Assembly (NCBI GenBank): GCA_021786825.1
Contig: JAJYMS010000111.1
Span: forward strand, 1-51,779
Reading direction: 5' to 3'
From: Bacillota bacterium
GTDB taxonomy: Bacteria; Bacillota; Sulfobacillia; JAMDAP01; JAJYMS01
DNA: 51,779 nt
In this document: positions 35,440-40,536 of the stretch, in pieces
Numbering within the stretch: position 1 is the first letter of the stretch
How the letters are laid out: each line of letters starts with the position of its first letter
Made by a program: the position numbers and the translations under genes
The notes under the pieces: generated by a model
Told to the model about the DNA's origin: nothing
What the model saw: the letters and a program-made list of their open reading frames with translations, nothing else
Database searches by the model: none

Positions 35440-36318
35440 GTGTCGGACGCGCCCTTGCCCCCGGAGCGGATCCCCCGCGCCTCTCTTGCGGTGATCGGCG
35501 GTTCGGGCACCTTCTCGAGCCGATTCCCGGAGGATTTGGAGGATCCAGCAGTACGGGTGTTGGCCAAGAACCTGCGGTTTGACACGCCTTACGGCCCCAG
35601 CCCCCTCTTCAAGCTGTTCAGCCTGTCCGCGGCCGCGGGAGAGGAGAAGCTGGTGCTGACGGTCAAGATGCACGGGCGCCGTTTCGGGGTCACCGCGGCG
35701 GACGCCTCGCGGCAGGTCTTCTGGGTGTTCCAGCAGGCGGGGGTTAAGAAGATCCTGGCCGAGGGCGGCGTCGGCGGCGCCAACCACCTGCTGGAGCTGC
35801 GCGACATGGTGGTCCCCGACGACTACATCGACCTGTCCCTGCGGCGCGACGTCGATCTGGGAGGCCCCTACCTGGGGGTGATGCGCCGCCCCGTCTGTTC
35901 CCAGCTCGCCCAGGAACTGATCCGGGCGGCGAACGCTCACGCCCGCCGTCATCAGGACCGGCGCGTTTTCGGCCGCGGCGTGTACGCCGTGACCGACGGG
36001 CGCCATTTTGAGAGCGTCGCTGAGGTTGCCATGCTGCGGCGCCTGGGGGCCGACATCGTGGGGATGACCATGTGCCCGGAGGTCTACCTGGCGCGTGAGA
36101 TCGGGGCCTGCTACGCCGGCCTTTACATCGTGGTCAACTATGGCGAAGGGGTGATCCGCGAATGGAACCACGCCGACCTCGAGCAGATTTTCTACGAGGA
36201 GGCGCGGCCGGTCGGCCGCATGCTGCTGGAAGCCCTGCGCCGGACCGGCGAGGACCAGGGTTGCGGCTGCCCGGATTTGCGCAAGCCCACCCTGCTGGTG
36301 GAAAGGCCTGAGGAGTGA
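35440..36318 (+). CDS. MTAP/PNP-fold nucleoside-cleaving enzyme of the futalosine cluster
   Basis: GTG 35440 follows GGGGAG by 7 bases. The 292-residue protein has the phosphorylase fold: IGGSGTF at 19-25, MHGRRF at 77-82, the GMTMCPEVYLARE block (208-220) with ribose-binding Met209, and VVNYG at 231-235. Compared with human MTAP, the phosphate-binding Arg of RHG is Met77, the TTA segment is EGG (108-110), and Asp220 aligns with Asn233. It may therefore be a hydrolase or prefer a 6-oxopurine. Being first in the mqn operon, it likely cleaves futalosine, aminofutalosine or the by-product 5'-deoxyadenosine; MqnB is otherwise absent here. Confidence 0.75.
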   Translation: MSDAPLPPERIPRASLAVIGGSGTFSSRFPEDLEDPAVRVLAKNLRFDTPYGPSPLFKLFSLSAAAGEEKLVLTVKMHGRRFGVTAADASRQVFWVFQQAGVKKILAEGGVGGANHLLELRDMVVPDDYIDLSLRRDVDLGGPYLGVMRRPVCSQLAQELIRAANAHARRHQDRRVFGRGVYAVTDGRHFESVAEVAMLRRLGADIVGMTMCPEVYLAREIGACYAGLYIVVNYGEGVIREWNHADLEQIFYEEARPVGRMLLEALRRTGEDQGCGCPDLRKPTLLVERPEE

Positions 36319-36325
36319 AGGCGTC

Positions 36326-37420
36326 GTGACCGGGATCGCGGCGAAAGTGCGGCGAGGGGAGCGACTCTCCGCCGCGGAAGGGCTGCAACTGCTGACTTCC
36401 ACCGACCTGCTGACCCTCGGGCGCCTGGCGGACCAGGCCCGGCGCGACAAAGTCGGCGACGCGGTCTACTTCGTGGTGAACACCCACCTCAACCACACCA
36501 ACGTGTGCTGGTTGAACTGCAAGTTCTGCGCCTTCTCCCGCCGCCCAGGGGACCCCGAAGCCTACCTCATGGACCCTGAGGAGGTCGAGTCGCGGTGCGC
36601 CTCCCTGGCGGGCCGAGGATTCCGGGAACTGCACATCGTGGGGGGAGTGCATCCCGGGCTGAGGCTGGAGTACTACGAGGCCATCCTCCGCGCGGCGCGG
36701 CGCCGGTTGCCGGAGATCATGATCCAGGCCTTCACCGCGGTGGAGGTGGACTACCTGGCCGGCAAGGCCGGCCTCAGCCTTTCCGCTTGCCTGGAGCGCT
36801 TGCGCGCGGCCGGGCTGGACGCGTTGCCGGGTGGCGGGGCGGAGATTTTCGCCCCCCGGGTGCGGGAACTGGTCTGCCCCCACAAGATCGGCGCCGACCG
36901 TTGGCTGGAGGTGCACGCGGCGGCCCACGCCCTGGGGATCCGCTCCAACGCCACGCTGCTGTACGGTCACTTGGAGCGACCGGACGAGGTCGTGGACCAC
37001 CTCATCCGCCTGCGGGAGTTGCAGGACCACACGGGCGGATTTCTGGCCTTCGCCGGCTTTGCCTTTCACCCCGAGAATACCGCCCTGGCCCGGGAGTACG
37101 GGCTTTCCGGGGAAACCACCGGCTACGAGGACCTGCGCCTGCTCGCCGTCGCGCGGCTGCTGCTGGACAACTTTGCCCACGTGAAGGCCTTCTGGATGAC
37201 CATGGGGCTGAAACTGGCCCAGGTTTCGCTGAGCTTCGGGGTGAACGATTTGGACGGCACGGTGATGGAGGAGCGGATCGTGCACGCCGCGGGGGCCGAG
37301 ACCGGCCAGATGGTGCCCAAGGAGGAGTTCATCGAACTGATTCGCCAGGCCGGCCGGGTGCCGGTTGAACGCGACACGCTCTACCGCGTCATCCGGACCT
37401 ATCAGGCACCGCGCAGTTGA
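36326..37420 (+). CDS. mqnE: aminofutalosine synthase MqnE (radical SAM), copy 1
   Basis: GTG 36326 follows GAGGAG in the previous gene's end. The 364-residue radical SAM enzyme has the 4Fe-4S motif Cys61-x3-Cys65-x2-Cys68 in CWLNCKFC, LHIVGGVHPGL, FTAVEVDYLA, the LDALPGGGAEIFAPRVR block and NDLDGTVMEE. MqnE adds the 5'-deoxyadenosyl radical to the MqnA product, forming aminofutalosine. A second MqnE-like gene lies beyond mqnA, so the two are labelled copy 1 and copy 2; which is the main enzyme is unclear. Confidence 0.88.
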   Translation: MTGIAAKVRRGERLSAAEGLQLLTSTDLLTLGRLADQARRDKVGDAVYFVVNTHLNHTNVCWLNCKFCAFSRRPGDPEAYLMDPEEVESRCASLAGRGFRELHIVGGVHPGLRLEYYEAILRAARRRLPEIMIQAFTAVEVDYLAGKAGLSLSACLERLRAAGLDALPGGGAEIFAPRVRELVCPHKIGADRWLEVHAAAHALGIRSNATLLYGHLERPDEVVDHLIRLRELQDHTGGFLAFAGFAFHPENTALAREYGLSGETTGYEDLRLLAVARLLLDNFAHVKAFWMTMGLKLAQVSLSFGVNDLDGTVMEERIVHAAGAETGQMVPKEEFIELIRQAGRVPVERDTLYRVIRTYQAPRS

Positions 37421-37439: not shown

Positions 37440-38291
37440 GTGACGCTTCGCCTGGGATGTATCGATTACCTGAACACCCTGCCGGTCCAGTTCGGCGTCG
37501 AGACCGGCGTGGTCCCCTGCGCCGCCCGCCTGGTGAAGGGAACCCCCGCCGAGCTCAACGAGCTCTTTGGGCAGGGGAAGGTCGACGCCGCTCCCATCTC
37601 CTCCATCCAGTACGCCCGGTTGCACCGGGAGGCCCTGGTCCTGCCGGGGCTTTGCGTGGCCGCGGCCGGCGAGGTGCGAAGCATCCTGCTCTTCTCCCAC
37701 CGCCCGCCCCGGGAGCTCGAGGGAGGTGAGGTGGCCTTGACCACCGCCTCGGCCACCTCCGTCGTCCTGGCGCGGATCCTGCTGGAGCGTTACTACCGGG
37801 TCGCGGTGGGCTATCGGGCGGCGAGGCCGATCCTGCCCGAGATGCTGGAACGGGCGGAGGCGGCCCTGCTGATCGGGGACGACGCTCTGCGCGCCGCCGA
37901 GGAGGAGCGCCGGCGGGGGGAACTGGTCATCACCGACCTGGGGGAGGCTTGGCGGGAGTGGACCGGGGAAGCGATGGTCTACGCCCTCTGGGCCGTCCGG
38001 GAGGAGGTCGCCGTCCGCCAGCCGGCCGAGTTGGCTGCCTTGGCGGGGGCCCTGGCGACCAGCCTGCAGTACGGCCGGTCGCACCGGGAGGAGCTGGTGG
38101 GCTACGGAGCCGGGCGGGCGGGGCTGCCGCTGCCCACGGTGCGGCGTTACTTTGATACCATCGAGAACGAATTAACCCCCGCTCTGGAGCGGGGACTGAT
38201 GACCTACTTCCGGTGGGCGCTGGCGGTCGGAGCGTTACCGGACCTGCCTGGGTTGCGGTTCTGGGTTCCCCGGGAGGAGATGGTCGGGTGA
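37440..38291 (+). CDS. mqnA: chorismate dehydratase MqnA
   Basis: GTG 37440 follows AGGGAGAGG. The 283-residue protein has the MqnA signature LGCIDYLNTLPVQFGVE, GTPAELNELFGQGKVDAAPISS, and the C-terminal FDTIENELTPALERGLMTYFRW. It dehydrates chorismate to 3-[(1-carboxyvinyl)oxy]benzoate, the first committed step of the futalosine route. The fold is a periplasmic-binding type without a signal peptide. It ends overlapping the next start (GTGA). Confidence 0.93.
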   Translation: MTLRLGCIDYLNTLPVQFGVETGVVPCAARLVKGTPAELNELFGQGKVDAAPISSIQYARLHREALVLPGLCVAAAGEVRSILLFSHRPPRELEGGEVALTTASATSVVLARILLERYYRVAVGYRAARPILPEMLERAEAALLIGDDALRAAEEERRRGELVITDLGEAWREWTGEAMVYALWAVREEVAVRQPAELAALAGALATSLQYGRSHREELVGYGAGRAGLPLPTVRRYFDTIENELTPALERGLMTYFRWALAVGALPDLPGLRFWVPREEMVG

Positions 38292-39418
38292 GCGGGGGAG
38301 AAGGGGTCCGGGTCAGTCCTGTCGTTCTCCGGGTCGCCCCGGAGCTGGGCGAAGTCGTCCGGAAGGTCCAGGCGGGGGAGCGCCTGGGGCCCCAGGACGG
38401 GCTCCTCCTGATGCGGACGGAGAACCTGATGGCGGTCGGCCAACTGGCCAACGAGGCGCGCCGCCGGCGGGCGGGGAACCGCGTCTATTTCAACAACAAC
38501 GCCCATATCAACTACTCCAATGTCTGCGCCATCCACTGCCGGTTTTGCGCCTTCGGCCGGGCCCGGCAGGAGCCCGGGGCCTACACCATGACCCGGGGGG
38601 AAATCCTTGAACTGGCCCAGACCTACGCCCAGGCCGGCGTCACCGAACTGCACATCGTGGGGGGTAACCACCCCGATCTCCCCCTGGAGTTTTTCGAAGC
38701 GACCCTCCGGAGCCTGCGCGAGGCCCTCCCGGCGGTGCACCTGAAGGCCCTCACGGCGGTGGAGATCGACCACCTGGCGAACCTGGCGGGAATAGGCCCC
38801 GAGGCGGTCCTGCGGCGGCTGCAGGCCGCCGGACTGGGCTCCCTGCCCGGCGGCGGGGCGGAGAATTTCAGCCCCCGCGTGCGGGCCTTGATCTGCCCGG
38901 CCAAGATCTCCGGGCGGCGGTGGCTGGAGATTCACCGCCTGGCCCACGGCCTGGGGATCCGTTCCACCGCCACGATGCTTTACGGGACGGTGGAGACCGC
39001 GGAGGAGGTCATCGATCACCTGCTGGCCCTGCGGGAGCTGCAGGACCAGACCGGAGGGTTCCAGGCCTTCGTTCCGCTGGCCTTTCATCCCCGGAACACC
39101 GGCCTGGACTACCTCCCCGGCCCGACCGGCCAGGACGACCTGCGGATGGTGGCCGTGGCCCGGCTGATGCTGGACAATTTCAAGTACCTCAAGGCCTACT
39201 GGGTGATGCTCACCCCGCGGCTGGCCCAGGTCGCCCTTGCCTTCGGGGCCAACGACCTGGACGGGACGGTGCGCCGGGAGCGCATCTCCCACGAGGCCGG
39301 GGCGACCAGTCCCCAGGAACAGACCAAGGAAGATTTCCTGCGCGCGATTCGCGAAGTCGGGCTCGTTCCCGCCGAGCGGGACACCCTCTATCGCGTCGTC
39401 CGGGAGTATCCCGCGTGA
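38288..39418 (+). CDS. aminofutalosine synthase MqnE-like radical SAM protein, copy 2
   Basis: GTG 38288 overlaps the mqnA stop. The 376-residue enzyme has Cys80-x3-Cys84-x2-Cys87 in CAIHCRFC and aligns end to end with copy 1: LHIVGGNHPDLPLEF, LTAVEIDHLANLAG, LGSLPGGGAENFSPRVR and NDLDGTVRRER. Its GGFQAFVPLAFHP is nearer the common MqnE form than copy 1's GGFLAFAGFAFHP. It could be the main enzyme, a subunit, or a paralogue with a different substrate. Confidence 0.85.
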   Translation: MSGGEGVRVSPVVLRVAPELGEVVRKVQAGERLGPQDGLLLMRTENLMAVGQLANEARRRRAGNRVYFNNNAHINYSNVCAIHCRFCAFGRARQEPGAYTMTRGEILELAQTYAQAGVTELHIVGGNHPDLPLEFFEATLRSLREALPAVHLKALTAVEIDHLANLAGIGPEAVLRRLQAAGLGSLPGGGAENFSPRVRALICPAKISGRRWLEIHRLAHGLGIRSTATMLYGTVETAEEVIDHLLALRELQDQTGGFQAFVPLAFHPRNTGLDYLPGPTGQDDLRMVAVARLMLDNFKYLKAYWVMLTPRLAQVALAFGANDLDGTVRRERISHEAGATSPQEQTKEDFLRAIREVGLVPAERDTLYRVVREYPA

Positions 39419-40517: not shown

Positions 40518-40536
40518 CGGCCCCGGGGAGGGGCCG
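40518..40536. terminator. terminator hairpin between mqnC and the DUF1540 gene
   Basis: CGGCCCC (40518-40524) and GGGGCCG (40530-40536) form a 7-bp stem with a 5-base loop, followed on the plus strand by CTCTTCCTTACT, modestly T-rich. It ends the menaquinone operon and perhaps the convergent small gene. Confidence 0.6.

Follow-up and report, generated by a model that had tools for sequence, protein, structure and literature searches.

The window, a stretch of 51,779 nucleotides from a Bacillota contig, carries a menaquinone (mqn) operon on its forward strand, in which the genes run in the order mqnZ, mqnE, mqnA, a second mqnE-like gene and mqnC, followed by a hairpin:

35440..36318, forward strand: mqnZ, first gene of the mqn operon, encoding a PF01048 (MTAP/PNP-fold) protein of 292 residues
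36326..37420, forward strand: mqnE (aminofutalosine synthase), first copy; TIGR03700, 477.8 bits, cut-off 434.55
37440..38291, forward strand: mqnA (chorismate dehydratase family, PF02621), the sole PF02621 gene in the genome
38288..39418, forward strand: second mqnE-like radical SAM gene; TIGR03700, 469.2 bits
39388..40512, forward strand: mqnC (cyclic dehypoxanthinyl futalosine synthase); TIGR03699, 495.4 bits, cut-off 428.1
40518..40536, forward strand: terminator-like hairpin 3' of mqnC, a possible operon end by consensus match only, such hairpins being no commoner than chance in the scanned region (4 seen, 3.8 expected)

The mqnZ reading frame starts with the GTG at 35440, just 5' of which GGGGAGATG provides a good ribosome-binding sequence, and its stop codon ends at 36318. 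The second mqnE-like gene starts with the GTG at 38288 and is preceded by GGAGGAGATGG. mqnA lies between the two mqnE-like genes (36326-37420 and 38288-39418), both of which exceed the TIGR03700 cut-off; the same layout is found at a locus of an order-mate (L036), and many Selenomonas-type loci hold two adjoining MqnE-like genes ahead of mqnC.

The name mqnZ was given in 2016 by Ravcheev and Thiele to a PF01048 gene in genomes without mqnD, for which it was proposed as the replacement (PMC4746308). In Mitsuokella, Megamonas, Selenomonas, Pelotomaculum and other genera it was reported to cluster with mqnC and mqnE; its neighbour in four genomes is the mqnEAC operon (PMC4746308). The family of the window protein is very probably the same, matched by genera and contexts rather than by the reference protein MHY_27640: common to both are PF01048, co-localisation with mqnE/mqnC (and mqnA), the absence of mqnD, and the genera Mitsuokella, Selenomonas and Pelotomaculum. 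In the open-access literature searched, only PMC4746308 treats MqnZ as this gene.

Relatives and predicted fold

The sole Pfam domain found in the window MqnZ is PNP_UDP_1 (PF01048; E 6.1e-35). Against NCBIfam, the protein falls below every curated cut-off, including those of its two best-matching families, MTAP (114.8 bits, 274.85 needed) and MTIP (105.8 bits, 223 needed), and the nearest solved sequence in HMMER alignment is the methylthioinosine phosphorylase 3ozb. The AlphaFold model is a confident PNP/MTAP fold (pLDDT 91, pTM 0.91), as the sequence-only reading had supposed for the operon's first protein, and the top Foldseek matches are MTAPs and 3ozb (E about 1e-21, 22-31% identity). 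MqnZ belongs to the MTAP/MTIP branch of PF01048.

Its nearest relatives in fold and sequence are accordingly the MTAP/MTIP proteins (TIGR01694, NF006599; 3ozb, 1wta, 2a8y). MTIP has in common with MqnZ the Glu/Asn pair for 6-oxopurines, whereas the Arg of RHG, the TTA segment and the GPR segment of MTAP/MTIP are Met, Glu-Gly-Gly and Gly-Arg-His in MqnZ. The futalosine hydrolase MqnB (TIGR03664) belongs to the same superfamily and the same pathway, and its hydrolytic base removal is the activity proposed here for MqnZ; however, TIGR03664 is not among the families matching MqnZ and, one MAG aside, the two proteins occur in different genomes. MqnD, which may be functionally equivalent, has a PF02621 domain and is related to MqnZ neither in fold nor in sequence.

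Phosphate and purine sites

Residues are numbered from the GTG-encoded V1. The window protein was aligned with HMMER to 3ozb, 1wta and 2a8y and with MAFFT to MTAPs and PNP-Is from the same genomes, and conservation was counted at sequence level over 105 distinct MqnZ orthologues. The alignments single out five segments:

35668..35670, forward strand: codon of Met77, which replaces the phosphate-binding Arg of RHG (MTAP Arg60, PNP Arg84)
35761..35769, forward strand: codons of Glu108-Gly109-Gly110, which replace MTAP Thr92-Thr93-Ala94 (PNP Thr-Asn115-Ala116)
35995..36012, forward strand: codons of Asp186-Gly-Arg188-His189-Phe190-Glu191
36064..36069, forward strand: codons of Met209-Thr210, at MTAP Met196-Thr197
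36136..36147, forward strand: codons of Asn233-Tyr-Gly-Glu236

Residue 77 is Met in 103 of the 105 orthologues and Ile in the other two; residue 108 is Glu in 102 and Asp in three, and Gly109 and Gly110 are present in all. Asp186 is found in 101. Clade-specific residues further include Arg188 and His189, which are peculiar to MqnZ and lie where the MTAP GPR aligns with Gly-Arg-His, Gln209, and Glu236, which replaces the Ala of NxAAG. Positions 209-210 are Gln-Ser in nearly all orthologues and Met-Thr in the window protein. What is kept from the phosphate site of the phosphorylases is S22, H78 and S/T210.

The purine side is invariant: Glu191, equivalent to PNP Glu201 (6-oxopurine N1), and Asn233, at the position of PNP Asn243 and MTAP Asp220, are each present in 105 of 105 orthologues. 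In trimeric PNP, Glu201 and Asn243 are the pair used for 6-oxopurines (PMC9916683, PMC10911062), and adenosine compounds become substrates in the double mutant Glu201Gln:Asn243Asp (PMC2799393). An Asn at the 233 position also occurs in MTIP-like proteins and PNP-I and is not odd by itself.

MqnZ thus appears to have a phosphate site stripped of its main ligands beside a complete purine site. Because the changed positions are near-invariant among the 105 orthologues, the alignments point to a clade-wide redesign, old and constrained, rather than to a drifting copy, and we infer that phosphate is no longer bound. The first alignment had set Met77, Glu108-Gly-Gly and Asn233 against MTAP Arg60, Thr92-Thr93-Ala and Asp220; the HMMER and MAFFT alignments agree with it, and the whole clade has lost the Arg and the TTA segment that hold phosphate, as it proposed.

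The retention of S22, H78 and S/T210 leaves some room for an MqnZ that has rearranged its phosphate site but works as a phosphorylase, its 1-phosphate product being isomerised and cleaved by MtnA-like or aldolase-like salvage enzymes, so that MqnD would be unneeded. Such chemistry would parallel methylthioadenosine salvage, and the window genome does have an MTAP gene adjoining an mtnA-like gene. Yet the Arg and the TTA backbone segment have given way to Met and Glu-Gly-Gly across the clade, and a carboxylate at the phosphate site should repel phosphate, which makes this reading very unlikely.

Distribution of mqnZ, mqnB and mqnD

The only PF02621 protein in the window genome is the MqnA of the operon, and the genome hence has no MqnD; the sequence-only reading overlooked that MqnD is missing along with MqnB. 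In a second set, exactly one PF02621 protein exceeds the cut-off in 44 of 46 mqnZ genomes, the other two being a genome with none and a MAG, G132, with two. A contrast set of 349 genomes of the phylum contains strong MqnZ in 59; PF02621 (the MqnA family) is present in all 59, as one strong copy in 57 and two in the remaining two, and no recognisable MqnD was found in any of them. Conversely, mqnZ is absent from 23 of the 25 genomes with two or more strong PF02621 copies (Fisher p = 3.5e-11 for mqnZ against two-copy PF02621, a statistic that ignores the relatedness of the genomes). Among these 23, MqnB exceeds its cut-off in 21, is split over contig ends in one and is absent from one, and full-length MqnB directly adjoins MqnD in 22 of 22 genomes (the 21 plus G208).

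mqnB and mqnD travel as a pair, and mqnZ occurs where the pair does not. Since carriers are without MqnD and MqnB, and genomes with MqnD have MqnB beside it, mqnZ seems to stand in for the pair; that it replaces the pair genetically is highly probable.

Assembly gaps were rejected as the cause of the missing mqnD, since a lone PF02621 protein and no MqnB are also what single-contig carriers show (e.g., G081, Pelosinus fermentans JBW45). G181 and G253, which seemed to carry mqnZ together with MqnD, were likewise set aside, their second PF02621 protein being an MqnA paralogue (42-47% to MqnA, with an insignificant match to MqnD). These extra MqnA-like paralogues lie away from the mqn operon, at L248:4501-5313(-) and L251:4960-5769(+), in G253 and G181. 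MqnC is missing from two further genomes with a PF02621 protein, G292 and G366, and an MqnA-like protein may therefore exist outside menaquinone synthesis. G259 (L252) and G451 have MqnE, MqnA and MqnC, with neither MqnZ nor MqnD detected; they are either incomplete genomes or hold a further solution for the last step.

The same counts bear on the suggestion, made at the outset for MqnC and extended here to the other radical SAM enzymes, that MqnZ salvages the 5'-deoxyadenosine they release. The operon holds radical SAM genes, and the fold suits 5'-deoxynucleosides. However, every organism with radical SAM enzymes makes 5'-deoxyadenosine, and mqnZ is confined to genomes with the MqnA family in all 59 strong carriers of the 349-genome sample; salvage would, moreover, leave both the MqnB and the MqnD steps empty. 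The suggestion is hardly credible in the light of this distribution.

Candidate base-removing enzymes

The window genome (99% complete, 7.7% contamination) encodes four PF01048 proteins: MqnZ, one of uridine-phosphorylase type and two of MTAP/MTIP type, of which one adjoins an adenosylhomocysteinase-like gene and the other an mtnA-like gene (L002). A genome-wide profile search found neither MqnB (TIGR03664) nor MTAN above cut-off among them, so the absence of a base-removing hydrolase, first remarked on from the window's letters, holds for the entire genome. Across 48 mqnZ genomes, MqnB exceeds its cut-off in one (G132, where it lies beside the MqnD of that MAG) and MTAN in eight, and 39 have neither.

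The other PF01048 proteins of the carriers vary by lineage, being MTAP in Sporomusa, Desulfotomaculum and Desulfofundulus relatives, DeoD-like (as judged from sequence) in Pectinatus and Selenomonas, and PNP-I in an Alicyclobacillaceae MAG. MTAP was ruled out as the common base remover, given that Pectinatus, Selenomonas and the Alicyclobacillaceae MAG have DeoD or PNP-I instead. MqnZ is the only PF01048 protein common to the carriers, and no other base remover is shared by them.

These observations weigh on the 2016 prediction, under which MqnZ would replace MqnD only and the base would be removed by another enzyme, such as MTAP, PNP or MTAN. The prediction is a published one (PMC4746308) and agrees with the loss of mqnD wherever mqnZ is present, with the MTAN of eight of the 48 carriers, and with an MqnC that seems unchanged, for which base removal before MqnC would be natural. 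It does not account for the disappearance of mqnB along with mqnD or for the lack of a single other base remover common to the carriers, nor for the retention of a complete purine-recognition pair that a purine-free substrate would make needless; we consider it improbable.

Neighbourhoods and a sister clade

One genome collection yielded 321 MqnZ relatives, including proteins from Mitsuokella, Selenomonas and Pelotomaculum, and mqnZ is linked to mqnE/mqnA/mqnC in 56 of 80 related loci. Among the most complete operons is an eight-gene run in Candidatus Aquicultor (L046), consisting of mqnL, an mqnP-like prenyltransferase gene, a UbiX-type gene, mqnE, mqnA, mqnC, mqnZ and an amidohydrolase gene. 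In this run, everything from chorismate to the prenylated product is covered except base removal and the MqnD step, and mqnZ alone is left for both.

The L046 amidohydrolase is related to 5'-deoxyadenosine and aminofutalosine deaminases, scores below the aminofutalosine deaminase cut-off, and fits a futalosine (6-oxopurine) substrate for MqnZ. A COG0402-type amidohydrolase lies directly 3' of mqnZ there (L046:8891-10174(+)), with equivalents in L039, L043, L045, L049, L063 and L107, and these seven are candidate aminofutalosine deaminases below the curated cut-off. A dedicated deaminase was rejected as a general marker of mqnZ: the close form adjoins mqnZ in seven loci, distant COG0402 relatives occur elsewhere, and some COG0402 match is present in 46 of the 48 mqnZ genomes, which is not specific.

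A diverged relative of MqnZ (244-260 bits) occurs in four genomes of one family without PF02621. In the three proteins examined, Phe replaces the Arg, while the Glu-Gly and the Glu/Asn pair are kept, and in all three loci the gene heads a BMP-type ABC transporter operon, adjoining genes for a BMP-family binding protein, an ABC ATPase and a permease:

L243:7932-8966, reverse strand: sister-clade gene
L244:8172-9032, forward strand: sister-clade gene
L245:8193-9362, reverse strand: sister-clade gene

BMP-type ABC transporters should, by family, import nucleosides. The Glu and the purine pair kept in the sister clade, and the operons of this type that it heads, suggest a purine-nucleoside substrate, and its protein is possibly a purine nucleoside hydrolase. 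They also suggest that the common ancestor of both clades used purine nucleosides and already lacked the phosphate Arg.

The sister clade would also suit an MqnZ that replaces MqnB only, that is, a futalosine hydrolase as first read, with an unrelated enzyme outside the operon performing the MqnD step. The fold, the purine pair and the lost phosphate site all point to N-glycosidic hydrolysis, and the carriers are without MqnB. Nevertheless, this arrangement gives no reason why MqnD is missing from all 59 carriers. It also calls for a second replacement enzyme that spread together with mqnZ, and the most complete operons offer no candidate for one; the arrangement is, on balance, rather unlikely.

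Proposed role and order of steps

MqnZ probably does the work of MqnB, of MqnD or of both. Base removal is its likely activity. Whether it also carries out the MqnD step, a claim drawn from gene content only, could go either way, and the combined proposal, a phosphate-independent enzyme of the futalosine route that takes the place of mqnB-mqnD with both steps included, appears to us evenly poised. In the best reading, MqnZ either performs the MqnD step or makes it unnecessary.

Under this proposal, MqnA and MqnE would produce aminofutalosine, which a COG0402-type deaminase may convert to futalosine. MqnZ would bind the 6-oxopurine through Glu191 and Asn233. Since Met77 and Glu108-Gly-Gly are predicted to remove the phosphate site and to place a carboxylate near C1', it would use water rather than phosphate to cleave the N-glycosidic bond. 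The notion of a phosphorylase-derived hydrolase acting on futalosine or aminofutalosine survives in narrower form. A futalosine nucleosidase is the most natural reading given the lost phosphate ligands, Glu191/Asn233, the mqn linkage, and the absence of any other MqnB and mostly of MTAN, whereas aminofutalosine is the less likely substrate, the Glu/Asn pair being that of 6-oxopurine enzymes. For the conversion of cyclic dehypoxanthinylfutalosine to 1,4-dihydroxy-6-naphthoate, too, MqnZ is the best candidate.

MqnD chemistry comprises an aldose-ketose isomerisation and a retro-aldol cleavage. A single phosphorylase-fold enzyme that combines N-glycosidic hydrolysis with isomerisation/retro-aldol chemistry, with Glu108 and Asp186/Arg188/His189 as new catalytic groups, and so replaces two different folds, is conceivable if somewhat doubtful. 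We know of no PF01048 active site with isomerase or retro-aldol chemistry, which speaks against the combined proposal, as do the S22, H78 and S/T210 still present from the phosphate site and the two genomes (G259, G451) that have MqnC but neither mqnZ nor MqnD.

The position of MqnC constrains the order of steps. An MqnZ acting solely after MqnC would require MqnC to accept a nucleoside, yet MqnC shows no matching change. mqnZ and mqnD genomes are intermingled in the MqnC tree, with at least five changes between them, and no MqnC residue was found to switch with mqnZ/mqnD status, the most discriminating columns following the tree. A changed MqnC substrate in mqnZ genomes was rejected on this ground. 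The comparison speaks for an MqnC that is unchanged and for removal of the base ahead of it; MqnZ would then act twice or share the work with another enzyme.

Implications

The role proposed in 2016 was that of an MqnD replacement only, whereas the present analysis adds the mqnB-mqnD pair as the unit replaced, together with a phosphate site that appears lost and a purine site that appears kept. The futalosine route serves as a narrow-spectrum drug target and figures in arguments about the early history of respiration, and under present annotation it looks two steps short in Sporomusa, Pelosinus, Selenomonas, Desulfofundulus, Pelotomaculum, Ca. Aquicultor and others. If MqnZ fills both steps, the pathway closes and the annotation of hundreds of genomes changes; MqnZ would then show clearly how a phosphorylase can become a hydrolase, one that possibly also cleaves carbon-carbon bonds.
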